Source: Treponema sp.
GTDB lineage: Bacteria; Spirochaetota; Spirochaetia; Treponematales; Breznakiellaceae
NCBI GenBank assembly: GCA_031280125.1
Contig: JAITHE010000104.1
Span: 1-36,546 of the forward strand
Length of the DNA stretch: 36,546 bases
Reading direction: 5' to 3'
Shown here: positions 22,402 through 36,125 of the stretch, piece by piece
Layout: each line of letters opens with the position of its first letter
Position numbering within the stretch: the first letter of the stretch is position 1
Made by a program: the position numbers and the translations under genes
The notes under the pieces: model-generated
Told to the model about the DNA's origin: nothing
Databases searched by the model: none
The model's input: only the letters and a program-made list of their open reading frames with translations

Positions 22402-23022
22402 TTACTTCTTGACTGCGGCCCTGACAAACACCAGGCCCTTGTTTATGCCCGGCACGGCGCCGCGGATCATTAAAAGCTGCTTTTCCGTATCCACCTTAAT
22501 CAGCCTCAGGCTCAATACGGTTACCCTTTCCCGGCCCATCCGTCCGGGAAGCTTTACGTTCTTAAAGGTCTTGTGGGGATAGGTGGACTGGCCGGTGGAC
22601 CCCGGTTCACGGTGAAACTTGGACCCATGGGAGGCCCGTCCGCCGCCGAAACCCCAGCGCCTCATAACCCCCTGGAAGCCCTTACCCTTGCTGATCCCCG
22701 TTACATCCACATAACGGCAGCCTTCAAAAAGCTCCGCCCCCAAAATGTCGCCCGCCTTTACGTCCTTCTCAAAGTCCCTAAACTCCCGCACCGTTTTTTT
22801 GGGGGTAATTCCTTCAGGAAACTGTCCGGCCCGGGGCTTGGTGGCCCTGTTTTTTTTTGCCTCATCCAGCCCCATCACCACCGCTTCGTAGCCGTCTTTT
22901 TCTTTTTCCTTCCGGGCTATGACCGTATTCGGATCAACGCGTAAAACCGTTACGGGCACCAAATTACCCACATCGTCAAAGATCTGTGTCATTCCTACTT
23001 TTCTGGCCATAAGACCCAACAT
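22402..23022 (-). CDS. rplC: 50S ribosomal protein L3
   Basis: L3 is an early assembly protein near the peptidyl transferase centre. The 206 residues start MLGLMARKVGMTQIFDD and show GFQGVMRRWGFGGGRASHG and SKFHREPGSTGQSTYPHK, with the glutamine that is methylated by PrmB in other bacteria. I chose this ATG because GGAG sits 7 bases upstream and the sequence matches L3 from here; the open frame begins 12 codons earlier. Confidence 0.97.
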   Translation of the reverse strand: MLGLMARKVGMTQIFDDVGNLVPVTVLRVDPNTVIARKEKEKDGYEAVVMGLDEAKKNRATKPRAGQFPEGITPKKTVREFRDFEKDVKAGDILGAELFEGCRYVDVTGISKGKGFQGVMRRWGFGGGRASHGSKFHREPGSTGQSTYPHKTFKNVKLPGRMGRERVTVLSLRLIKVDTEKQLLMIRGAVPGINKGLVFVRAAVKK

Positions 23023-23176
23023 GACGCAACTCCAGCAAATAATCTTAGGCCTTTTCAAAACCCCGCCGGTTTTGAAGGACCCCTGCGGGTTTTCCGTTCC
23101 GCAGACCGCGAAACCCGCATTTTTCAGCGGCCCCTTTCAACATTCGGGTTAAAAAGCCTCTCTAAAGGGATTAACC
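23023..23176 (-). other. Structured spacer between rpsJ and rplC
   Basis: This 154-base gap holds at least two hairpins: TTCAAAACC (23054-23062) with GGTTTTGAA (23068-23076) over a 5-base loop, and GCGGGTTT (23085-23092) with AAACCCGC (23111-23118). The second has an 18-base loop. No T run follows on the minus strand. There is no ORF. Position just before rplC-rplD is suggestive of translational or transcriptional feedback. Confidence 0.5.
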
Positions 23177-23485
23177 CTACTGTTTGATCTCCACATCCAC
23201 CCCGGCGGGAAGCTCCAGCTTCATCAGGGAATCCATTACCTCCGGGGAAGGATTGATAATATCGATCAGCCGTTTATGGGTACGCATTTCAAACTGTTCG
23301 CGGCTCTTCTTGTTCACATGGGGTGAACGAAGCACCGTGATCTTGTTAATGCGGGTTGGAAGGGGGATGGGCCCCGTTACACCGGCCCCCGCCTTCTGCA
23401 CCGTTTGAACGATGGACTTCGCGCTCTGATCGATCAACTCCACATCGAAACCGCGCAGCCTGACGCGAATTCGTTCCTTAGCCAT
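23177..23485 (-). CDS. rpsJ: 30S ribosomal protein S10
   Basis: S10 is a ribosomal protein and, with NusB, an antitermination factor. The 102 residues show [39 protein letters not shown] and [19 protein letters not shown] start it at MAKERIRV, behind a GGAGG 4 bases upstream; an upstream in-frame ATG would put that GGAGG inside the coding region. It follows tuf after 54 bases. Confidence 0.97.
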
Positions 23486-23539
23486 TATTCCTCCACCCTG
23501 CAAAAAAAGGCCGGCGCAACAAACGCCAACCTTTTATCC

Positions 23540-24739
<1,200 letters not shown>

Positions 24740-24970
24740 TACTTTCTTCCTCCTAGCATTTTGAACCGAAAAGACAGATTTTAAGGACGGGGGAACAGAC
24801 AGCAGAAGAAATCTGGACTATCATTCCACCTATCCCATCAAAGCCGATGATCGGTTTGGAATATGACCAACGCCAAGGCGTTTTATCATACACTTTTGGG
24901 GCTTTCCCCGAAAACCTCGTTTACATACCGCCGTACCCGGAATACAAATATCCCGGGCGGCGAAATCAGG
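24740..24970 (-). other. Structured rpsG-tuf spacer at the usual fusA position
   Basis: The 231-base gap has no convincing ORF. It holds a long stem-loop 9 bases after the rpsG stop (24929-24933 with 24958-24962, then 24936-24944 with 24949-24957, one wobble), a TTTTGGGG/CCCCGAAAA hairpin (24894-24914), a palindrome AACGCC/GGCGTT (24869-24882) and another CCGATGATCGG (24844-24854). No clear promoter or terminator could be assigned. The structures could mark an RNA-processing or attenuation site ahead of tuf. Confidence 0.45.
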
Positions 24971-25441
24971 CTACCACCTGTAGTGGGCAAAGGCCTTGTT
25001 GGCCTCGGCCATTTTATGGGTGTCTTCCTTTTTCTTAAAGGCCGTACCGGTACTGTTGAAAGCATCCAGAAGTTCCGCCGCCAGACGCTCCCCCATACCG
25101 CGGCCCGACCGGGCTCTGGCGGCATTGATGATCCACCGCATTCCCAGGGCTTCCCGCCGGGACTCCCGAATTTCCACCGGAACCTGGTAGGTGGCCCCGC
25201 CGACCCGCCGGGACTTTACCTCGATTATAGGCTTTACATTATCTATGGCCTTGAGAAAAACTTCCAGGGGTTCCTTTTCGACCTTGGACTGGAGCGATGA
25301 AAGGGCCCCGTGAACAATCCGAAGAGCCACGGACCGCTTGCCTTCCCACATCATACGATTGACAAATTTGGAGACCACCACGCTGTTATACCGGGGATCG
25401 GGCAAAATCCCCCGGTCCACGGTCTTCTTTTTTCTACCCAT
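24971..25441 (-). CDS. rpsG: 30S ribosomal protein S7
   Basis: S7 nucleates the head of the small subunit. The 156 residues begin [20 protein letters not shown] and contain [34 protein letters not shown] and the C-terminal [13 protein letters not shown]. It follows rpsL after 49 bases. In most bacteria fusA comes next; here a structured spacer and tuf do. Confidence 0.97.
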
Positions 25442-25490
25442 TAACCCTACCCATACAAAAGGCTTTACAATCCGGCATATACAAAACCCG

Positions 25491-25865
25491 CTACGCCTTG
25501 GGCCGCTTGGCGCCGTATTTTGAACGGCTCCGTTTGCGGTCTTCCACGCCCAGAGTATCCTTTGCGCCCCGGATGATATGATAACGAACCCCGGGCAGAT
25601 CCTTTACCCGTCCACCCCGGACCAGCACCACCGAGTGCTCCTGAAGATTGTGACCAATACCGGGAATATAGGCCGTAACCTCGGTTCCATGTGAAAGCCT
25701 AACCCGGGCCACCTTGCGAAGGGCCGAATTGGGCTTTTTGGGTGTTACGGTCATAACCCGGGTGCAAACCCCCCGTTTCTGGGGACAGGAATGCAGGGCC
25801 GGGGATTTCGTTTTAGAACCGGCCTGTTTTCTTCCAAAACGAACCAGTTGATTGATAGTAGGCAC
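25491..25865 (-). CDS. rpsL: 30S ribosomal protein S12
   Basis: S12 monitors decoding. The 124 residues begin [15 protein letters not shown] after a GTG start, with AAGGAG upstream. The lysines that are altered in streptomycin-resistant mutants are both wild type ([11 protein letters not shown] and [13 protein letters not shown]), and the aspartate that is methylthiolated in E. coli is present after the second lysine. It is the first gene of the long minus-strand cluster. Confidence 0.97.
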
Positions 25866-26246: not shown

Positions 26247-26597
26247 CTATAGTTTTGGGTTTTCCACCTCCGTTTTGTCAACCTGCTGGTAGGGCGCCAG
26301 GGAGGAAATCATCCTGACCGGTGCGGAAAAATTATTGACCACATAATGAACCTCCTTGGGCTCAACATGAATAAACTGCCCCGGACCCAGGATATGGACC
26401 GTTTCGTCCACCACGATGGTAACGGTTCCTTCAAGAATATAGAAATTCTCTTCCATTACATCATGATAATGGGCACGAAAATCCTGTCCCGGCATAAATT
26501 GTACCAGGGCAAAATTCATCCGGGGACCCTGCATAAGGTACTTGGGACCATGATCACCGAACCGGTACTCCCTGTCTTTTTCGTCCACAATAAACAT
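26247..26597 (-). CDS. Small single-domain cupin in the lsr operon
   Basis: This 116-residue protein is one cupin barrel: motif 1 HYHDVMEENFYILEG supplies metal ligands (two His and a Glu) and motif 2 PGQFIHVEPKEVHYVV supplies the last His. It starts at the ATG with AAGGAG six bases upstream; a TTG two codons earlier is also open. It is the third gene of the lsrR-lsrK-cupin unit, 37 bases after lsrK. The lsr operons I know use LsrG, an unrelated ferredoxin-like fold, to isomerise phospho-AI-2, and none is seen here. The cupin could do that step; this is inference from position. A sugar-phosphate isomerase or a ligand sensor are alternatives. Confidence 0.85.
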   Translation of the reverse strand: MFIVDEKDREYRFGDHGPKYLMQGPRMNFALVQFMPGQDFRAHYHDVMEENFYILEGTVTIVVDETVHILGPGQFIHVEPKEVHYVVNNFSAPVRMISSLAPYQQVDKTEVENPKL

Positions 26598-26634
26598 ACA
26601 CAACTCCTTGCAAAACTATTGAAAGATCCCGCCG

Positions 26635-28200
26635 TTACAATCCGGGGGCGCGCCACATATATTTGGTAACCCCGGCATCGCTTAAGCCCAGCTGGGGCCC
26701 ATAGGCGGCCTGCCAGTTTTCATAGGCCCGCCGGTAGATTTCCCTGTTTTTCCCATCGGGAAAAAAGACCTTCTCTATTGTTACCAGATCCCGGGCGGCC
26801 TGCTTAATATCCGGGTATAAACCTATCCCCTTACCGGCAATCAGGGCCGCCCCCAGGGCGGCGGCCTCCTTTACCACCGGAACTTCCACCGGTATACCGA
26901 GTATATCGGCCAGTATTTGGGCCCAGAGTCCGCTCTTGGAAGCTCCCCCGGCGAAGACGACTTTTTCGGGGCCCTTGCCGGCTGCCCGCTCTACCAGCCG
27001 CAGGTGCCCCAGGGTTACCAGGGCGGTATTTTCCATAATTGCCCGGTAAAAGGTAACTTTGTTGTATTTTTCCGGATCCAATCCAAAATTAATAAAACCC
27101 GGAGCGGCGTGCTTCCAACTGATGTAGTTCATCACATCAGAAAAGGTACAAATCATTCCATGGGAACCGGCGGGGATCGATTGGGCAGCCCGGTCCATAA
27201 TCGCATAGGGATCGCTCCGCTGTTCCGCGGCAAGGCGCTTTTCTTCGGCGCAGAAGGCGTCCCGGTACCAGCGCATCACCAGACCCGGATTAAAGGCCAG
27301 GGCTTCGTATTGCCACATGTTTTCCACCGCGTGGCAGTTTACCCTGACATCACAGGCAGGAGAAGCGGCGGCCGTACCGGTGTTGTACTCGTACTGCCAG
27401 AAACTGCCGCCAAAAACCGCCGCTTCCCCGGCGTCGACCACTCCGACGCCGATGGAACCAAGCTGGCAGTCGCCGCCGCCGGCAACCAGGGGCGTACCTT
27501 CGGCAAGACCGGTTTCTTCCGCCCCGGCTTTGGATACCCTGGCGGCCACGGTTCCGCACTCCAGCACATCGGGAAAAATATCATCCCGCAGGCCGCAGCG
27601 GCGGGCTATGCCGGTATCCCAGGTCCGGGCTGCAAGACTGAACAAGCCCGTGGTGGAGCCGTTGCTGGGTTCCACCGCCAAGACCCCCGAAAGGCGGTAG
27701 ATAATCCAGTCGTTGATCATGCCCATCCGGGCGATTTTACCGTACAACTCCGGAAGTTTGTTCTTTACCCACAGCAGCCGGGGCAGGGCCCCTAAAGCAA
27801 AGGTTTGACCGGATTTAAGGTAAAGTTCCCGCTCCAGAGCGCCGTCAATGCGCTTAAGCTGGCCCACTTCATCTCCGGCCCGGGCATCCACATTGGCGCA
27901 GCCCCATAGTTCCCTTCCCTTTTCATCGTAAAGAATGATCCCCTCCCGCATGCAGGTGGCGGACAGCGCCCGGATCCGGGCCGGGGGGATGCCGGTATCC
28001 GCCAGGACATCCCTGATACAAAACCGGGTCAAATCCCAGTTGGTTTTCCAGTCAAAATCCATGCTGCCCGGATACCGGGGATCCTCCACATGCCTCCATT
28101 CCCGCTGGACGCAGCCGATCTGGGTTCCCCGGGTATCAAAAATAACAGCCCGCACGCTGCCGGTCCCCGCGTCAACGGCCATAAGATAATCGGCTTCCAT
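26635..28200 (-). CDS. lsrK: Autoinducer-2 kinase LsrK
   Basis: LsrK phosphorylates the linear form of AI-2 (DPD) with ATP, trapping it in the cytoplasm and making the inducer of LsrR. The 521-residue FGGY kinase matches E. coli LsrK closely by memory: LMAVDAGTGSVRAVIFD at the start, MREGIILYDEKG, CANVDARAGDEV, VAGGGDCQLGS with catalytic D244, MRWYRDAFCAEEKRLA, VVFAGGASKSGLWAQILADI, VVKEAAALG and the end WRAPGL. These shared features go beyond generic xylulose or glycerol kinases. GAGGAGG lies before the ATG, 16 bases after lsrR. Confidence 0.95.
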   Translation of the reverse strand: MEADYLMAVDAGTGSVRAVIFDTRGTQIGCVQREWRHVEDPRYPGSMDFDWKTNWDLTRFCIRDVLADTGIPPARIRALSATCMREGIILYDEKGRELWGCANVDARAGDEVGQLKRIDGALERELYLKSGQTFALGALPRLLWVKNKLPELYGKIARMGMINDWIIYRLSGVLAVEPSNGSTTGLFSLAARTWDTGIARRCGLRDDIFPDVLECGTVAARVSKAGAEETGLAEGTPLVAGGGDCQLGSIGVGVVDAGEAAVFGGSFWQYEYNTGTAAASPACDVRVNCHAVENMWQYEALAFNPGLVMRWYRDAFCAEEKRLAAEQRSDPYAIMDRAAQSIPAGSHGMICTFSDVMNYISWKHAAPGFINFGLDPEKYNKVTFYRAIMENTALVTLGHLRLVERAAGKGPEKVVFAGGASKSGLWAQILADILGIPVEVPVVKEAAALGAALIAGKGIGLYPDIKQAARDLVTIEKVFFPDGKNREIYRRAYENWQAAYGPQLGLSDAGVTKYMWRAPGL

Positions 28201-28216
28201 ATATATTCCTCCTCGT

Positions 28217-29137
28217 TTAACAATGCTCTATAAGCCACCGGGCGGTGTCTTCGTTGGTAATAAGGATATCCATGTACCCCAACGCAAGGGCGCCCTTGAT
28301 GGCTTCCCGCTTATCCTTTCCCGCGGCAACGCCGGTAACATTAGACAGGGACTTCAGTACCTCCGGCGGGGTGCTTACCAGCCGTTCCTCCAGGGGAGTA
28401 AGCAGCATATTCCCCCGGGCATCAAAAAAATGACAAAGCACGTCTCCCACGGCGCCCTGCATTTTAAGGTAAAGAAAATCATTTTTGGAAAAAATGCCGG
28501 ATTTGAGGATAGTGGCTTCATCGTTCATGCCGCCCACACCTATAATGGTAAAGGATGCCAGCGAAACCATACGGAGAATTTCCTTTACCGGCGGTTCTTC
28601 AATAATGGCGTCCACCATTTCTTTGGACGAAACCAGCAGGGGCGCAGGAATCAAAAACAGCCGGGCATTAAAAACATTGGACCGGGCGTTGGGAAGGTAA
28701 ATGCTTACCCCCCCGGTAAGGGAAATACACGAGATGGGGTTTTCCACATTTTTGGCCAGATTGTTGAGGATCTTTCCCGTGGTGTCGCCATAACCTACAT
28801 TGATAAATTCACCGTTTTTGATGCGGCTGCCCAAATACATGGCCGCCGCTTCGGCGATGGCGTCGTTAATTTCCGCCACCGGCGCGCCCTCCGGCGTGGG
28901 GATCACAAAGGAATCTGTGAGCCCATAGGCTTCGATGAGCTGTTTTTCCAGCTTCATCCGGCGGACATTGTCTTCCCGGATGGTAAATTTAATGATCCCC
29001 GTCTGTTCCGCCCTGTTTAAAAGCTTAATCACCCGCATACGGGATATGCCAAACAGCTCCGAGATTTGCTGCTGGGTTTTTTTTTCAAGGAAATAATGCC
29101 AGGCAGCCTTTACCGCCAGTTCTTCCTCAAAATCCAT
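28217..29137 (-). CDS. lsrR: LsrR, SorC-family transcriptional repressor
   Basis: LsrR represses the lsr genes until phospho-AI-2 binds. The 306-residue protein has an N-terminal helix-turn-helix (about 20-45, with TQQQISELFGISRMRVIKLL) and a C-terminal SorC sugar-phosphate-binding domain (about 55-306, with NVGYGDTTGKILNNLA, GGVSIYLPN, VGDVLCHFFDARG and GVAAGKDKREAIKGAL). E. coli LsrR is of similar size. CAGGAGAAGG precedes the ATG. It is transcribed divergently from lsrA and likely controls both directions from the shared region. Confidence 0.92.
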   Translation of the reverse strand: MDFEEELAVKAAWHYFLEKKTQQQISELFGISRMRVIKLLNRAEQTGIIKFTIREDNVRRMKLEKQLIEAYGLTDSFVIPTPEGAPVAEINDAIAEAAAMYLGSRIKNGEFINVGYGDTTGKILNNLAKNVENPISCISLTGGVSIYLPNARSNVFNARLFLIPAPLLVSSKEMVDAIIEEPPVKEILRMVSLASFTIIGVGGMNDEATILKSGIFSKNDFLYLKMQGAVGDVLCHFFDARGNMLLTPLEERLVSTPPEVLKSLSNVTGVAAGKDKREAIKGALALGYMDILITNEDTARWLIEHC

Positions 29138-29189: not shown

Positions 29190-29218
29190 ATTATATTGTA
29201 TTGGAACAATTGTATCAA
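29190..29218 (-). promoter_or_regulatory. lsrR promoter with overlapping repeats
   Basis: On the minus strand TTGATA (plus 29213-29218) and TATAAT (plus 29190-29195) are 17 bases apart, a near-consensus sigma-70 promoter pointing at lsrR. Within it are two direct ATTGTAT copies (29195-29201 and 29209-29215, 14 bases apart) and the palindrome ACAATTGT (29206-29213). A repressor bound here would shut off lsrR, suggesting autoregulation. Confidence 0.75.
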
Positions 29219-29267: not shown

Positions 29268-29296
29268 TTGACAATCCTGTTTTACCGGCCTATAAT
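29268..29296 (+). promoter_or_regulatory. Consensus promoter of lsrACDB
   Basis: TTGACA (29268-29273), 17 bases, TATAAT (29291-29296): both hexamers match the sigma-70 consensus exactly with the best spacing. Transcription should start near 29303. Such a strong promoter implies firm repression, and a palindromic site lies just downstream. Confidence 0.88.
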
Positions 29297-29378: not shown

Positions 29379-30899
29379 ATGGCGGAATTTTACCAGCCCG
29401 GTTCAAAACCGGTCCCGATACTGTCGGTTCGGGAGATCAATAAATCCTTTGGTTCCAATTCGGTCCTCTGCGGGATAACCCTGGACATATATCCCGGCGA
29501 GGTCCTTGCCCTGATTGGCGGAAACGGGGCGGGCAAAAGCACCCTGGTTAAATCCATCATGGGAATCTACAAACCCGATTCGGGACGTATTTTTATCGGC
29601 GGCGAGGCTCTGGAATTTTCAAAACCCGCCGTTTCCCTGAACAAGGGCGCCTATCTTATCCCCCAGGAACCGATGCTCTTTCCCAACATGACGGTGGAAC
29701 AAAACGTTCTTATGGGATTCCAGGGAAAAAAAACGGCCCTCCGTTCAAAACTAAACGATGTGGTCAAACAACTGGGCTGGAAGCTTGATCTTTCCAGAAG
29801 CGCCAGGACCCTGTCGATAGCGGAACAGCAGCTGGTCGAGATACTCCGGGGACTGCTCCGGGAAGCCCGGATTCTGTTTCTTGACGAGCCCACCAGCGCC
29901 CTTACCTTTGACGAGGTAAACGCCCTCTTCGCAATCATTGAAAACCTCAAAAAAAAGAACATCGGCATTGTGTATATTACCCACCGGCTGAACGAAGTCT
30001 TCATGATCGCCACCCATGTGGCGATCATGAGGGACGGCATTATCACCATTTCCGGCAGGGTGGAAGAGTTTACCCGGGAAATGCTTGTGAAGGGGCTTTT
30101 GCCCGGTGACTTTTCCGAGCGTCTGCCGGCGGAAAAAACCGGCGGCCGGATGACAGAGGGTGAAAAACCGGTGTTTGAACTGCGCGATTTTAACGGCTAT
30201 GGTTTTGCGGACATTAACCTGCGTATCTATCCCGGCGAAGTTCTGGGACTCTGCGGCGTGGTCGGGGCGGGCAGAACCGAACTTGCCATGACCATTTTTG
30301 GCCGGGACGAGGCCATATCGGGGCAGGTTCTGCTGGACGGCAAAGACATAAGCGGCATGAAGACCAATGATATTATCAAGCGGGGCGTCAATTATGTGCC
30401 GGAGGATCGCTTCCTTAACGGTATTTTCAGGATAAGTACCCTGGCGGGGAACCTGAGTTCCGCCTGTCTTGATTCCCTTTCGAAATTTTTTCTCGACTTT
30501 GCCGCCGAACGGAACATTGCGGAAAAGTACGTTTCCGATTTCAGGATAAAGGCCACGGGAATACGGCAGGAGATGGGAAGTCTTTCCGGGGGGAACCAGC
30601 AAAAAGTGGTTATCGGCCGGTCCCTCTCTACCACTCCCCGGCTGGTGATCCTGGACGAACCAACCAGGGGCATCGATGCCGGCGCCCGGGGCGACATTTA
30701 CGCAATCATCGGCGAGTTAAAGGCCCGGAACGTGGCGGTCCTCCTCATTTCGTCCGATATGGAAGAAATCGTTGAATTAAGCGACCGGGCCATGACCATG
30801 TTCCAGGGCAGAATAAACCGGGAGTTTTCCAAAGAAGAGATCAATCAGGATAACCTGATGCGGGCGTCCTTTGGGGTTTACAAGGAAAACAAAGCATGA
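29379..30899 (+). CDS. lsrA: AI-2 ABC transporter ATPase LsrA
   Basis: LsrA powers AI-2 import. The 506-residue protein has two nucleotide-binding domains, as in the ribose-type importers. The first has Walker A GGNGAGKST (47-55), a divergent signature TLSIAEQQL and Walker B ILFLDEPT. The second has the degenerate P-loop GVVGAGRTE, a full signature SLSGGNQQK and VILDEPTRGID. GGAGGG is 12 bases before the ATG, a long spacing. The end overlaps lsrC by four bases (ATGA). By itself it would be hard to tell from RbsA; the neighbouring genes settle the assignment. Confidence 0.92.
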   Translation: MAEFYQPGSKPVPILSVREINKSFGSNSVLCGITLDIYPGEVLALIGGNGAGKSTLVKSIMGIYKPDSGRIFIGGEALEFSKPAVSLNKGAYLIPQEPMLFPNMTVEQNVLMGFQGKKTALRSKLNDVVKQLGWKLDLSRSARTLSIAEQQLVEILRGLLREARILFLDEPTSALTFDEVNALFAIIENLKKKNIGIVYITHRLNEVFMIATHVAIMRDGIITISGRVEEFTREMLVKGLLPGDFSERLPAEKTGGRMTEGEKPVFELRDFNGYGFADINLRIYPGEVLGLCGVVGAGRTELAMTIFGRDEAISGQVLLDGKDISGMKTNDIIKRGVNYVPEDRFLNGIFRISTLAGNLSSACLDSLSKFFLDFAAERNIAEKYVSDFRIKATGIRQEMGSLSGGNQQKVVIGRSLSTTPRLVILDEPTRGIDAGARGDIYAIIGELKARNVAVLLISSDMEEIVELSDRAMTMFQGRINREFSKEEINQDNLMRASFGVYKENKA

Positions 30900-31918
30900 G
30901 CATGGGGCTGCCGGGCGGTATAAAGCGGGTATTCAAGATCCGGGAACTCACTTCCCTGTCCTTTGTGGTGGCGCTGTTTCTTTTTGTGGGTTTTTTTAAT
31001 CCCGGCTTTCTTTCCAAAAGCAACATCCTTTTGATATTAAACGACAGCGTGGTGTTTACCCTGCTGGCGGCGGGAACTTCCTTTGTGATCATCTCAGGGG
31101 AGATCGATGTTTCCATCGGGGCGGTTACCGGGCTTTGCGCGGCGGTATCCGGTTCCATGATCCGGGACGGCGCTCCCTGGACCCAGGCCATAGCCTTTAC
31201 CCTGTTCCTGGGGCTTCTCTGCGGCCTGGTAAACGGCCTGGGCTTTATGTACCTGAACATTCCCTCGATCATTATCACCCTGGGAACCAGCGGCATTATC
31301 CGGGGAATTATCTACCTGTATACCGGAGGGCGGTGGGTGGAAGATATGCCCGTGGCTTTTAAGGATTTGGCCAGGGTTTCCTTTCTGGGGATTACCCTGT
31401 TTTACTGGATGGCCCTCTTAATCGCCGCGGCGGGAACCTTGGTCATGACCCGGACCAGACAGGGCCGGTACTTTGCCGCCATCGGCGACAACGTTACCTG
31501 CGCTACCTTCCTGGGTATTCCGGTACGGTTTACCAAGGTGTTTTCCTTTGTTTTGGGCGCCCTGTTTTCCGCCGCGGGGGGCATCATGTTTGCCAGCCGG
31601 GTAGGTTTTGTGGCGCCCATCGCCGGTACGGGTTACGAGATGCGGGCCATCGCCGCCTGCGTCCTTGGGGGGGTAAGCCTTTCCGGAGGGGTGGGTTCCC
31701 TTATCGGAGCGTCCATGGGCGCCATTATCATGGCTTCCATTCGCCCCATTCTGGTGTTTTTGAATTTTACCGCCGATGACGACATGATAACCGGTATTAT
31801 CCTTATTACCATTATTGTTGTGGACGCCCTTTTGCAGCAGCGAACCATGGAACAGGCCCGGCGTCAGCGGCTTTTGGCAAAAACCCAAAAGCTTGTTACC
31901 CGGAGGGCCGGAACATGA
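30896..31918 (+). CDS. lsrC: AI-2 ABC transporter permease LsrC
   Basis: One of the two membrane subunits of the AI-2 importer. The 340-residue protein has 8-10 hydrophobic segments and the ribose-type permease motif GEIDVSIGAVTGLCAAVSG, then NIPSIIITLGTSGIIRGI and MRAIAACVLGGVSLSGGVGS. It is close in size to E. coli LsrC (342). It overlaps both neighbours by ATGA, so LsrA, LsrC and LsrD should be made in fixed ratio. Confidence 0.9.
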   Translation: MSMGLPGGIKRVFKIRELTSLSFVVALFLFVGFFNPGFLSKSNILLILNDSVVFTLLAAGTSFVIISGEIDVSIGAVTGLCAAVSGSMIRDGAPWTQAIAFTLFLGLLCGLVNGLGFMYLNIPSIIITLGTSGIIRGIIYLYTGGRWVEDMPVAFKDLARVSFLGITLFYWMALLIAAAGTLVMTRTRQGRYFAAIGDNVTCATFLGIPVRFTKVFSFVLGALFSAAGGIMFASRVGFVAPIAGTGYEMRAIAACVLGGVSLSGGVGSLIGASMGAIIMASIRPILVFLNFTADDDMITGIILITIIVVDALLQQRTMEQARRQRLLAKTQKLVTRRAGT

Positions 31919-32958
31919 ACAGATTGCCCGAAATAAGCCGGAAATTGTTCCGGTGGGAATTCTTCCTTGTCATTCTGCTCATTGCGGAGGTCCTGTTTTT
32001 TGGTTCCTTAAACCCCCGGTTTCTGCGGCCCCAGGTGCTGTTTGGCAGCATCAACGACTTTTTGTCGATCTGCATCATTTCCCTGTTTGTTACCTTCGTA
32101 CTTATCACCGGAGGCATGGACATCCAGGGGGGCTCCATTGTGGGACTGGCGTCGGTTATGGTGGGCATCCTCTGGCAGCAGGCGGGAATGAATATTTGGC
32201 TGGCCTGTTTCTGCGCAATCCTGGGGGGAATGGTCTGCGGTTTGTTAAGCGGTTTTCTGGTGGCCTACGCCAAAGTGCAATCCATGGTGGTTACCCTGGG
32301 AGGTTCCTTTTTCTACGCCGGGGTAGCGGTAACCCTGACCAAGGTTGCCAAAGTAGAAGCCTACAAGGGCATCAGCGGTTTTCCCCAAAGCTTTACTTCC
32401 TTTTCCAGCCTGTGGATCCGCGGGATCCCCTTTCAGTTTATTATCTTCCTGGCGCTGACGATCATGGGATTTATTCTGCTCCACCGTACCAAGTACGGCC
32501 GGTACCTGTTTTTATGCGGCATCAATCCCAGCGCGGCGGAATACTCGGGAATTAACAGCCGGGCGGTGGTTATGAGCGCCTATATGTTAACCGGAATGAG
32601 CGCCGCCCTGGCGGGAATCATCCTCACCTCCTATCTGGGAACGGCCAAGGCGGATTTCGGCAGGGAATTAACTCTTCCCATTGTTACCGCCGTTGTACTG
32701 GGGGGAACCTCAACCCTGGGTGGGCGGGGAACGGTTATTGGCACTGCCCTGGCGGCGCTGGTCATCGGCGTCATGCGCTTTGGGCTTTCCATGATTGGGA
32801 TCTTTACCCAGTATCAGGATATTCCGGTGGGAATTCTCTTGATCATCGCCGTGGGCATGCGGGGCCTGGCGGCGGGCTTTTCAAAAACCAGCCTAAAATC
32901 AAACTGGTTTTTGGGGCTTTTTAAAAAGGTTTCTGTTTCCGGTTGTAAACCGGATTAA
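31915..32958 (+). CDS. lsrD: AI-2 ABC transporter permease LsrD
   Basis: The second membrane subunit of the importer. The 347 residues include the motif TGGMDIQGGSIVGLASVMVG, KVQSMVVTLGGSFFYAGVAV and LPIVTAVVLGGTSTLGGRGT. About 8-10 membrane segments are visible. It is about 15 residues longer than E. coli LsrD at the C-terminus (KKVSVSGCKPD). Order lsrA-C-D-B is that of enteric bacteria. Confidence 0.9.
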   Translation: MNRLPEISRKLFRWEFFLVILLIAEVLFFGSLNPRFLRPQVLFGSINDFLSICIISLFVTFVLITGGMDIQGGSIVGLASVMVGILWQQAGMNIWLACFCAILGGMVCGLLSGFLVAYAKVQSMVVTLGGSFFYAGVAVTLTKVAKVEAYKGISGFPQSFTSFSSLWIRGIPFQFIIFLALTIMGFILLHRTKYGRYLFLCGINPSAAEYSGINSRAVVMSAYMLTGMSAALAGIILTSYLGTAKADFGRELTLPIVTAVVLGGTSTLGGRGTVIGTALAALVIGVMRFGLSMIGIFTQYQDIPVGILLIIAVGMRGLAAGFSKTSLKSNWFLGLFKKVSVSGCKPD

Positions 32959-32986
32959 ACAAATCAATGTGAGAAGGAGACGGAAA

Positions 32987-34054
32987 ATGAGAAAAGTGGG
33001 CTTTATTCTTGCGGCGCTGATCGTGGCGGTGTTGATTGCGGGGTGCCCCCAATCCAAACCCCAGGCCAGCGGGGAAAAAACCATTGTTTTTGTACCGAAA
33101 ATCACCGGTAACGCTTTCTTTGAATCCGCCAATGACGGCGCCCAGGCCCATGCCAAGGCCAACGGCTATACGGTTCAATACATAGGGAGCCAGCAGGCTT
33201 CCGTGGCTGAACAGGTAAGGATTATCCGGCAGGCCATTGCCCAGGGGGCGGACGGAATTTCCGTGTCCTCCCTGGATGCCACCGGTCTTGATGAAGCCAT
33301 GAGGGAAGCGGTAAAGGCGGGCCTGGCGGTTACTACCTGGGATTCGGATGTTTCAGGCGACGCCCGGGCCGTCATGGTTTCCCAGGGAACTCCGGAAATT
33401 CTTGGCAAGATGCTGGTGGATATGGGCGCCGATGCCCTGAAAAACCGGGGCAAGAATCCTGACGGCGACGCAATCAAATATGTATGGCACTATTCCCAGT
33501 CAACCGTGGCGGATCAAAATTCCTGGCACGTGGCCGGTGAAGCGTACATCAAACAAAAGTATCCTTCCTGGGTAAACGTGCGGACCGACAATTATTACAG
33601 CAACCAGGACCCCGAGCAGGCCCTGAGCGTCGGGCAGGCCATTCTCCAGTCCCACAGCGACATTGACCTTATTATTTGCAACGATTCCACCGCCCTGCCC
33701 GGCCAGCTTCAGGCCGCGCAGAACCTGGGGAAAACCAAAAAAGACGTAACGATCACCGGTTTTGCCCCTCCCAATTCCATTAAACCCTTTGCCAGGGCGG
33801 ATGTGGTGGAACGCTGGGGCCTCTGGGATTCCGGACAACAGGGAGCGCTGGGCTGCTATCTTGCCTTCCATCTGGCTTCGGGCAACAAAATCAAAGTCGG
33901 CGACACGATCACCGTTCCCAGCATCGGTACGGTGGAGGTGCTTCCCAATACGGTACTGGATCCCGGCGCCTATACCGCTGAGAATTCCGGCGTGGTACTC
34001 CTTCCCGAGCGGGTTGTGTTTACCACGGAAAACATGGACAATTACAATTTCTAG
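32987..34054 (+). CDS. lsrB: AI-2-binding protein LsrB (predicted lipoprotein)
   Basis: LsrB captures the R-THMF form of AI-2 outside the membrane and hands it to LsrCD. The 355-residue product has a lipoprotein signal (LIAG with C20), so it should be membrane-tethered, unlike soluble enteric LsrB. Aligned by eye to Salmonella LsrB, four of six ligand contacts are kept: K38 (K35), D119 (D116), D176 and Q177 (D166, Q167). The other two differ: N232 for P220 and S234 for A222. The ending VVLLPERVVFTTENMDNYNF is close to enteric LsrB. GAAGGAGA precedes this ATG; a GTG six codons earlier is open but unsupported. Confidence 0.9.
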   Translation: MRKVGFILAALIVAVLIAGCPQSKPQASGEKTIVFVPKITGNAFFESANDGAQAHAKANGYTVQYIGSQQASVAEQVRIIRQAIAQGADGISVSSLDATGLDEAMREAVKAGLAVTTWDSDVSGDARAVMVSQGTPEILGKMLVDMGADALKNRGKNPDGDAIKYVWHYSQSTVADQNSWHVAGEAYIKQKYPSWVNVRTDNYYSNQDPEQALSVGQAILQSHSDIDLIICNDSTALPGQLQAAQNLGKTKKDVTITGFAPPNSIKPFARADVVERWGLWDSGQQGALGCYLAFHLASGNKIKVGDTITVPSIGTVEVLPNTVLDPGAYTAENSGVVLLPERVVFTTENMDNYNF

Positions 34055-34210: not shown

Positions 34211-34244
34211 AGGCCCCTATGAACTTGAGTGTTCATGGGGGCCT
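34211..34244 (+). other. Long stem-loop upstream of lsrF
   Basis: AGGCCCCTATGAAC (34211-34224) pairs with GTTCATGGGGGCCT (34231-34244) over a 6-base loop, 14 bp with one wobble. It ends 14 bases before the lsrF ribosome binding site. There is no T run, so it may be a translational control stem, or one arm of a transposon-derived sequence next to the repeat. Confidence 0.6.
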
Positions 34245-34270
34245 CCTACATTCAGAACGGAGAAACAAAC

Positions 34271-35155
34271 ATGGCAGATGCAGAGGGTCTTAAAGTTGAA
34301 AAAAACTATCACACGGACAAGGCTTTCAGGGTAAGCGGAGATTTCCATGTCAAGGGCGCGTCAAACCTCGACTGGGGCATGAAAAAACATTTGACCAATA
34401 TTTTTAATCCCAAAAGCGGCAACACCGTAATGTTTGCCTTTGATCACGGATATTTTATGGGCTCCGTGTCCGGCCTGGAACGGCTGGACATTCTGATCCC
34501 CCGCCTGGTGGATCATGTGGATGTACTCATGGCCACCCGGGGAGCCTTTAGAACCTGTGTAAAACCGGATTTCAGAAAAGGGATTGCCCTCAGGGTGTCC
34601 GCCGGATCATCAATGTTGAACGACGATCTCAGCCACGAGATCGTTTCGGTGGACATTGAGGACGCCATCCGCATGAACGCGGACTGCCTGGCGGTACAGA
34701 CCTTTATCGGCGCGGACGGGCAGCTTGAAAGCATCAACAATCTTTCCAGGGCTATCAATGAAGGGAGCCGCTACAGTATACCGACCCTGGGCGTTGTGGC
34801 CGTGGGAAAGAATATGGAGCGGACCGATCAGTATTTTAAGCTGGCAACCCGGATTGTCGCCGAACTGGGCGCGCATATTGTCAAGACGTACTACTGCGAA
34901 AAATTCGAGGAAGTAGTCGCCGCCTGTCCGGTTCCCATCGTAGTGGCCGGAGGCAAAAAGCTCCCGGAAAAGGAAGCCTTAACAATGGCCTTCCAGTCTA
35001 TCCAGGGAGGCGCCCGGGGGCTTGATATGGGAAGAAACATTTTCCAGAGCTACCATCCGATTGAAATGGCGGATGCCATCGGTAAAATTGTACACGAAAA
35101 GTTCACCGATAAGGAAGCCTGGGAATACTTTTGCGATAAGACGAAAACAACCTGA
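34271..35155 (+). CDS. lsrF: LsrF, thiolase acting on phosphorylated AI-2 product
   Basis: LsrF transfers an acetyl unit from 3-hydroxy-2,4-pentanedione-5-phosphate to CoA, giving dihydroxyacetone phosphate and acetyl-CoA. The 294-residue class I aldolase-like protein matches E. coli LsrF (291): LDWGMKKHLTNIFNPKSG, FAFDHGYFMG, the lysine K205 in IVKTYYCEK (E. coli K203, Schiff base), PIVVAGGKKLPEKEAL and GLDMGRNIFQS. I start it at the ATG with GGAG 8 bases upstream; the frame is open to a GTG at 34229, inside a stem-loop and without ribosome binding site. It is parted from lsrB by 216 structured bases. Confidence 0.95.
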   Translation: MADAEGLKVEKNYHTDKAFRVSGDFHVKGASNLDWGMKKHLTNIFNPKSGNTVMFAFDHGYFMGSVSGLERLDILIPRLVDHVDVLMATRGAFRTCVKPDFRKGIALRVSAGSSMLNDDLSHEIVSVDIEDAIRMNADCLAVQTFIGADGQLESINNLSRAINEGSRYSIPTLGVVAVGKNMERTDQYFKLATRIVAELGAHIVKTYYCEKFEEVVAACPVPIVVAGGKKLPEKEALTMAFQSIQGGARGLDMGRNIFQSYHPIEMADAIGKIVHEKFTDKEAWEYFCDKTKTT

Positions 35156-35297: not shown

Positions 35298-36125
35298 ATG
35301 GATGCGTCGACATTGGCACAGTTAAAGGCCAAAGCCAAGGAAATCAGGAAGCTTACTATAGAAGAAATCGGCAACCTGGGTTCGGGCCATATCGGGGGGG
35401 CCATGTCCATCGCGGACGTGCTGACCCTGCTCTACTACCACAAGATGAAGGTGGACCCCGCCAATCCCCGCTGGGAAGGCCGGGATTACCTCGTGGTTTC
35501 CAAGGGCCACGCGGGGCCGGTGGTCTATGCGGCCCTGGCTTCCAAAGGCTACTTCCCCGTGGACTGGCTTAAAACCTTGAACCAGGGGGGCACGAGGCTT
35601 CCCAGCCACTGCGACCGGGTGCTGACCCCGGGGATCGACATGACCGCCGGGTCCCTGGGGCAGGGCTTTTCCGCCGCCTGCGGCATTGCCCTGGGGCTTA
35701 AAATGGACGGCAAGCCCAACCGGGTATACGCCATCGTTGGGGACGGCGAATCCGACGAGGGTCAGGTCTGGGAGGCGGGGCTCTTTGCCGCCGCCAAGGG
35801 GATCGCCAACATCACCGCCTTTACGGATTACAACAAGCAGCAGCTGGACGGCTATGTCAAGGACATCCTGGACCTGGGGGACCTGCCGGCCAAGTGGCGG
35901 GCCTTTGGCTGGTTTACCCAGGAGGTGGACGGCCACAACCTTGAAGAACTGGACCGGGCCGTGGACGCCGCGGCGGCCCAAACGGAAAAGCCCTCCATGA
36001 TCATCATGAACACCATTAAAGGGAAGGGCTGTAACTTTGCCGAGGGCGTCGAAAAAAACCACAGCATGGCCTTTAACATGGACAAGGCCCGGGAAGCCAT
36101 CGCCGCTTTGGAAGGAGCAGACTAA
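35298..36125 (+). CDS. Transketolase, N-terminal (ThDP-binding) subunit
   Basis: Transketolase moves two-carbon units between sugar phosphates in the pentose phosphate pathway. This 275-residue protein covers the thiamine diphosphate pyrophosphate-binding half only: GHIGGAMSIADVLTLLYYHKM, SKGHAGPVVYAALASKGYF, GSLGQGFSAACGIALG and the ThDP motif GDGESDEGQVWEA with N about 27 residues on (DYNKQQ). AAGGAAGG lies 6 bases before the ATG. The stop overlaps the next gene (TAATG), so the two halves should form one enzyme. Split transketolases are common in Firmicutes, archaea and spirochaetes. Confidence 0.92.
   Translation: MDASTLAQLKAKAKEIRKLTIEEIGNLGSGHIGGAMSIADVLTLLYYHKMKVDPANPRWEGRDYLVVSKGHAGPVVYAALASKGYFPVDWLKTLNQGGTRLPSHCDRVLTPGIDMTAGSLGQGFSAACGIALGLKMDGKPNRVYAIVGDGESDEGQVWEAGLFAAAKGIANITAFTDYNKQQLDGYVKDILDLGDLPAKWRAFGWFTQEVDGHNLEELDRAVDAAAAQTEKPSMIIMNTIKGKGCNFAEGVEKNHSMAFNMDKAREAIAALEGAD

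Follow-up and report, generated by a model that had tools for sequence, protein, structure and literature searches.

AI-2 is a signal common to many bacteria. In its degradation LsrG, the (4S)-4-hydroxy-5-phosphonooxypentane-2,3-dione isomerase, shifts a carbonyl between adjacent carbons of a phosphorylated keto-alcohol, and LsrF requires the isomerised substrate. Metal-dependent sugar-phosphate isomerases of the cupin class perform the same type of reaction as LsrG; the family Cupin_2 covers a very wide range of functions, and dioxygenases are among the proteins that it matches.

The association of a cupin with lsr genes is already recorded as an annotation label. The RAST/PATRIC role name 'Cupin domain protein in autoinducer 2 (AI-2)-related operon' appears for Bacillus sp. 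B87, whose annotation lists lsrR, lsrK, the LsrF thiolase and the cupin, and does not list lsrG (PMC8876208). A fabR mutant of Salmonella induces STM4071 along with the lsr genes (PMC4804515), and Salmonella lsrG mutants are summarised as having raised lsr transcription (PMC2728841). The yeast cupin Cff1p is needed for making the AI-2 mimic MHF, and a glutamate is essential for this (PMC8092285). In the open-access literature searched, we found neither a discussion of cupin function in the lsr pathway nor a functional assignment for STM4071.

We analysed a stretch of 36,546 nucleotides from a Treponema sp. metagenome-assembled genome (the window), in which a first-pass annotation had suggested that a small cupin encoded beside lsrR and lsrK may be an unrelated replacement for a missing LsrG.

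The lsr locus of the window

The cupin gene is directly established as a member of an lsr locus in which lsrA, C, D, B, F, R and K are all present (Table 1). The lsrR-lsrK-cupin group runs opposite to lsrACDBF, and the region that separates lsrR from lsrA contains two near-consensus sigma-70 promoters pointing in opposite directions. The spacing of the three genes, with gaps of 16 nt between lsrR and lsrK and of 37 nt between lsrK and the cupin gene, suggests that they are transcribed together. LsrK and LsrF exceed the NCBIfam equivalog cut-offs, and LsrA, C, D, B and R do not. In alignments, LsrF keeps the lysine equivalent to E. coli K203, and LsrB has the same residue as Salmonella LsrB at four of the six AI-2 contact positions of the latter, the other two (N and S) being different. 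Plasticity of this binding site in clostridial LsrB was reportedly described by Torcato in 2019.

The gene that follows lsrF codes for the N-terminal half of a transketolase (35298-36125) and is not found there in most of the other lsr loci examined. At its other end the locus abuts the str/S10 region, with the genes of ribosomal proteins L3, S10, S7 and S12 and of EF-Tu directly downstream of the cupin (22402-25865).

Table 1. Coordinates of the lsr genes and associated signals in the window
Feature	Position	Strand	Remarks
Cupin (Cupin_2), 116 aa	26247..26597	minus	Final gene of lsrR-lsrK-cupin; ORF, Pfam match, conserved metal site, predicted cupin fold
Shine-Dalgarno AAGGAG	26604..26609	minus	6 nt upstream of cupin ATG; read from sequence
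lsrK, autoinducer-2 kinase	26635..28200	minus	NF008187, 744 bits; equivalog cut-off 528 (passed)
lsrR-type sugar-binding transcriptional regulator	28217..29137	minus	Best NCBIfam match LsrR, 184 bits; below equivalog cut-off 486
Sigma-70-like promoter, lsrR-lsrK-cupin	29190..29218	minus	11/12; consensus match only
Sigma-70-like promoter, lsrACDBF	29268..29296	plus	12/12; consensus match only
lsrA-type ABC ATPase	29379..30899	plus	Best match LsrA, 530 bits; below cut-off 586
lsrC-type permease	30896..31918	plus	Best match LsrC, 260.5 bits; below cut-off 388
lsrD-type permease	31915..32958	plus	Best match LsrD, 269.6 bits; below cut-off 500
lsrB-type AI-2 binding protein	32969..34054	plus	Best match LsrB, 309.7 bits; below cut-off 384
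lsrF, 3-hydroxy-5-phosphonooxypentane-2,4-dione thiolase	34229..35155	plus	NF006081, 396 bits; cut-off 297 (passed)

The cupin and the absence of LsrG

The open reading frame of the cupin, which starts with ATG, corresponds exactly to the one reported in the first-pass annotation, and its assignment as a metal-binding cupin held as far as the Pfam match and the predicted metal site go: the protein matches Cupin_2 (PF07883) with 65.9 bits against a gathering cut-off of 27.2 (E = 2.6e-18). Both cupin motifs are intact, the first as G37-x5-H43-x-H45-x4-E50-x6-G57 and the second as G73...P80...H84-x3-N88. The predicted metal ligands H43, H45, E50 and H84 (three-His-one-Glu) are identical in all 76 lsr-linked relatives aligned, and numerous other polar positions do not vary from one phylum to another. 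We do not claim E49 as a catalytic residue, since the metal ligand is expected to be E50 and E49C was found in a single clade.

Apart from Cupin_2, Pfam gave a weak match to the AraC ligand-binding family. The Pfam and NCBIfam matches included no ABM or LsrG family (NF007791 / PF03992) and no DNA-binding or signalling domain; the phosphomannose isomerase family PF01050 (MannoseP_isomer) remained below its gathering cut-off (22.0 against 23.6 bits), and the Cff1-type cupin family was absent from the Pfam matches at E <= 0.001.

The LsrG model (NF007791) had no match in the window genome, a MAG that is ~77% complete, and a search for the ABM family gave one match far under the cut-off (11.4 bits, E = 0.8). 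A hidden lsrG in the window or elsewhere in this ~77% complete genome was thus not found by profile search, which agrees with the earlier reading that the locus has no LsrG-like ORF and extends it to the recovered part of the genome. The genome has luxS.

Distribution of the cupin in lsr loci

The occurrence of the cupin was surveyed in 393 genomes of the Spirochaetota, the phylum of the window, 22 of which have LsrK. In three of these (G003, G039 and G068), no lsr neighbourhood can be recognised around the gene of the LsrK-like kinase. In the other 19 genomes, the cupin adjoins lsrK in 16, including the window; it lies on a separate contig from lsrK in one (G295), and the lsr loci of G138, where LsrK is interrupted by a stop, and of G028, on a small contig, have neither cupin nor LsrG. 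An independent search with the cupin gave 18 close matches in the same 393 genomes, 17 of them in genomes with LsrK; the last belongs to a decayed lsr locus in which lsrF and lsrB survive as fragments. The co-occurrence of cupin and LsrK has a Fisher p of ~2e-24, with the genomes counted as independent despite their relatedness. Four more distant cupins were found in Spirochaetota without LsrK, in contexts that share no evident pathway. The cupin frame is still open beside broken lsr genes both in a locus of the Spirochaetota (L219 6487-9400) and in Clostridium magnum (L100 8109-10351).

A sample of Lachnospirales was chosen by LsrK alone, the cupin not being a criterion, and the cupin adjoins lsrK in all 14 lsrK loci, from 13 genomes, none of which contains lsrG. 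LsrK was rare in two other, broad samples, occurring in 2 of 398 genomes around C. ragsdalei and in 1 of 345 around Anaerotruncus colihominis, numbers too small to contribute to the comparison. The GTDB species genomes were also scanned with an alignment of lsr-linked cupins, a query that makes the result speak for close relatives only, and the best 80 of the 312 relatives obtained were inspected, the other 232 being left out. Among these 80, lsrK is in the locus in 74 and lsrG in none. Four of the remaining six are at contig ends. In Clostridium magnum the lsrK of the lsr locus is truncated, and in one genome the cupin now lies apart from an lsrF-lsrK pair, which the genome retains. No LsrG above the cut-off was found in the 50 cupin genomes checked. 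The LsrG-like ABM proteins of cupin genomes were considered as candidates and rejected, the best one (81.5 bits, on contig 34 of G256, L048) being under the LsrG cut-off and the others weaker; the cupin-bearing lsr locus of G256 is on another contig.

Loci with lsrK and the cupin and without lsrG were thus found in Spirochaetota, Lachnospirales, Oscillospirales, Clostridium, a Lacticaseibacillus plasmid and a Deinococcus plasmid. The recurrence of the cupin in lsrG-less loci is what the first-pass annotation had anticipated, with G138 and G028 as exceptions, and a chance neighbourhood was discarded, since cupin and lsrK are found together in several phyla, also in loci sampled by LsrK. The conservation of the cupin with LsrK is also seen in their distances, which correlate (Mantel r = 0.82 for 102 loci, against at most 0.25 in 999 permutations), as would be expected of genes that are inherited together. 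Only lsrF, lsrK and the cupin are seen nearby in several loci without a transporter (L047, L060, L065, L118 and others), and L189 has an lsrK-cupin-lsrF tandem. As such reduced loci retain the cupin together with lsrK and lsrF, it can be placed with the phospho-AI-2 breakdown enzymes rather than with import.

The Lacticaseibacillus paracasei plasmid is conjugative and carries a whole lsr operon, which includes the cupin and has rbsD after it (L143 2249-11339). On the plasmid of Deinococcus psychrotolerans (L144 6397-8366), lsrK and the cupin are the only lsr genes nearby, no LsrF being found there, and a cobalamin gene cluster adjoins them. A different, more distant cupin-like ORF (L190 1394-1825, in G708) follows a divergent lsrK in a locus where the transporter genes are also divergent.

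Loci that contain lsrG

The lsr loci of E. coli K-12 and of Enterobacter hormaechei contain lsrG and no annotated cupin. In rhizobia the cupin is absent and an LsrG-like ABM protein occupies its slot directly 3' of lsrK. The loci of this type on the lsr plasmids of Sinorhizobium and Roseateles sp. XES5 have the ABM gene after lsrK (L142 10604-10918; L147 10602-10907) and a class II aldolase in the place of lsrF (L142 1923-3173; L147 1919-3172).

Both genes are present in the Salmonella operon, with lsrG after lsrF and the cupin after lsrK. This cupin, presumably STM4071 given its position beside lsrK (STM4072), is ~39% identical to the window protein. A cupin ~70% identical to it at the DNA level occurs in 125 of 5,426 E. 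coli genomes. In the one genome of these that was opened, E. coli MS 196-1, the cupin ends a Salmonella-type lsr operon (L175 11995-12345), on an island that carries an epimerase gene, lsrG and the cupin and lies between yjhX and IS remnants. The Salmonella-type cupins keep the metal ligands and are changed at otherwise conserved positions (E49C, K108S, D39S).

A strict either/or of cupin and LsrG was therefore rejected, both being present in the Salmonella operon and in the E. coli island. The replacement of LsrG by the cupin, as first proposed, agrees with the LsrG-less loci and with the exchange of genes in the rhizobial slot, and it does not extend to these operons. Nor does the cupin cover for LsrG in Salmonella: lsrG mutants have a phenotype although the cupin gene is present (PMC2728841), and the Salmonella cupin therefore does not replace LsrG there. 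The Salmonella-type cupin may have changed its role; alternatively, the step at which the family as a whole acts may be a different one. The sequences fit both readings.

Predicted fold

The structure prediction called for in the first-pass annotation gave a cupin fold (AlphaFold, mean pLDDT 90.9), and the top PDB structural matches of the model are cupins, with TTHA0104 (1v70) as the best one and phosphomannose isomerases of Thermococcus in second and fourth place. By sequence profile, the best match in the PDB is yxaG, a quercetin 2,3-dioxygenase (1y3t/2h0v; E = 1.5e-12). As yxaG is best by profile and isomerases are near by fold, the fold leaves the chemistry unsettled.

Possible roles of the cupin

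We give roughly even chances to the cupin being a phospho-AI-2 isomerase, a conserved breakdown enzyme that takes the place of LsrG where lsrG is missing; its substrate, reaction and metal are what we infer. AI-2 imported by LsrACDB would be phosphorylated by LsrK to 4-hydroxy-5-phosphonooxypentane-2,3-dione, and this keto-alcohol would be bound at the three-His-one-Glu metal site of the cupin. The carbonyl would then be shifted from C3 to C4 via an enediol, as in the metal cupin sugar-phosphate isomerases, and 3-hydroxy-5-phosphonooxypentane-2,4-dione would be released to LsrF. In Salmonella-type operons, which have LsrG, the role of the diverged cupin would have been changed or lost. The Deinococcus pair of lsrK and cupin without LsrF nearby and the lsr loci of G138 and G028 with neither cupin nor LsrG speak against this isomerase role, and phospho-AI-2 may isomerise slowly unaided. 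An evolutionary scenario to which we give slightly less than an even chance is that LsrG displaced an unrelated cupin isomerase in enterics and rhizobia, that the diverged cupin retained next to LsrG in Salmonella may have been repurposed, and that the bacteria with lsr systems and without LsrG (Spirochaetota, Clostridia and some Bacilli) use the cupin.

The presence of cupin and lsrG together in Salmonella-type operons would be explained if the cupin acted on AI-2 or phospho-AI-2 at a step other than that of LsrG, where it might open, close, hydrate or epimerise furanose-like forms for LsrK, LsrR or LsrF, the bacteria without LsrG relying on spontaneous isomerisation or on another enzyme. AI-2 consists of interconverting isomeric forms (PMC12834153), and the tie of the cupin to lsrK is constant, extending to the Deinococcus plasmid with no lsrF nearby. 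This reading leaves unexplained the LsrG-like ABM protein in the same slot in rhizobia and the lack of LsrG above the cut-off in all 50 genomes checked that have a close relative of the window cupin, and the Lacticaseibacillus locus has its own mutarotase gene, rbsD, beside the cupin. We regard it as rather unlikely, with a chance that deserves to be taken into account. Alternatively, the cupin, a small single-domain protein whose gene belongs to the R-K (regulatory) half of the locus, might have no catalytic activity and instead buffer or sense phospho-AI-2 or AI-2 by binding it, thereby tuning LsrR derepression, or else assist LsrK. The co-regulation of STM4071 with the lsr genes (PMC4804515) and the weak AraC match fit such a function, which we nevertheless consider improbable, as the four metal ligands and the many polar residues invariant across phyla point to catalysis, and the cupin is without a DNA-binding or signalling domain.

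The profile match to yxaG raises a further question, namely whether the cupin could break down phospho-AI-2 or its enediol as a metal oxygenase or lyase, much like quercetinase or acireductone dioxygenase, and so provide a second sink independent of LsrF; the enediol of phospho-DPD would resemble acireductone. The yxaG match is, however, generic to the cupin motif, and a second sink would be redundant where LsrF is present, as it usually is. Most carriers of the cupin (Treponema, Lachnospiraceae, Oscillospiraceae) are strict anaerobes, and for this reason an oxygenase role seems unlikely; we give the oxygenase or lyase reading only a very slight chance.

If the cupin is indeed the isomerase, it would be the missing enzyme of most of the LsrG-less lsr loci surveyed and would represent a second phospho-AI-2 isomerase chemistry. 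The cupin gene of the Salmonella lsr operon (STM4071) thereby becomes a testable question.

Comparison with known systems

LsrG (E. coli b1518; NF007791, PF03992) would share with the window cupin the proposed place in the pathway. The two proteins have no sequence similarity, LsrG having an ABM fold and the other a cupin fold with a predicted metal site. The Bacillus protein labelled by RAST/PATRIC has the same description and context as the window cupin, the likeness being by description alone, and its role name is a label without a function. STM4071 and the homologous cupin of the E. coli island are similar to the window cupin in lying directly after lsrK and in having the same metal ligands; they differ from it by E49C, K108S and other substitutions and by the presence of lsrG in the same locus.

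Like the window protein, the yeast Cff1p is a cupin associated with AI-2-like sugar chemistry and resembles sugar isomerases (PMC8092285), but it belongs to a different cupin family and is linked to the making of MHF, in contrast to the AI-2 breakdown considered here. The archaeal small-cupin phosphomannose isomerases of Thermococcus (7zvm, 7zvy) are 28% identical to the window cupin, with TM values of 0.73-0.78 on the query for the top chains. They act on another substrate, and the N-terminal GPKYL-x-GP segment of the window cupin is outside the sequence alignment with them.
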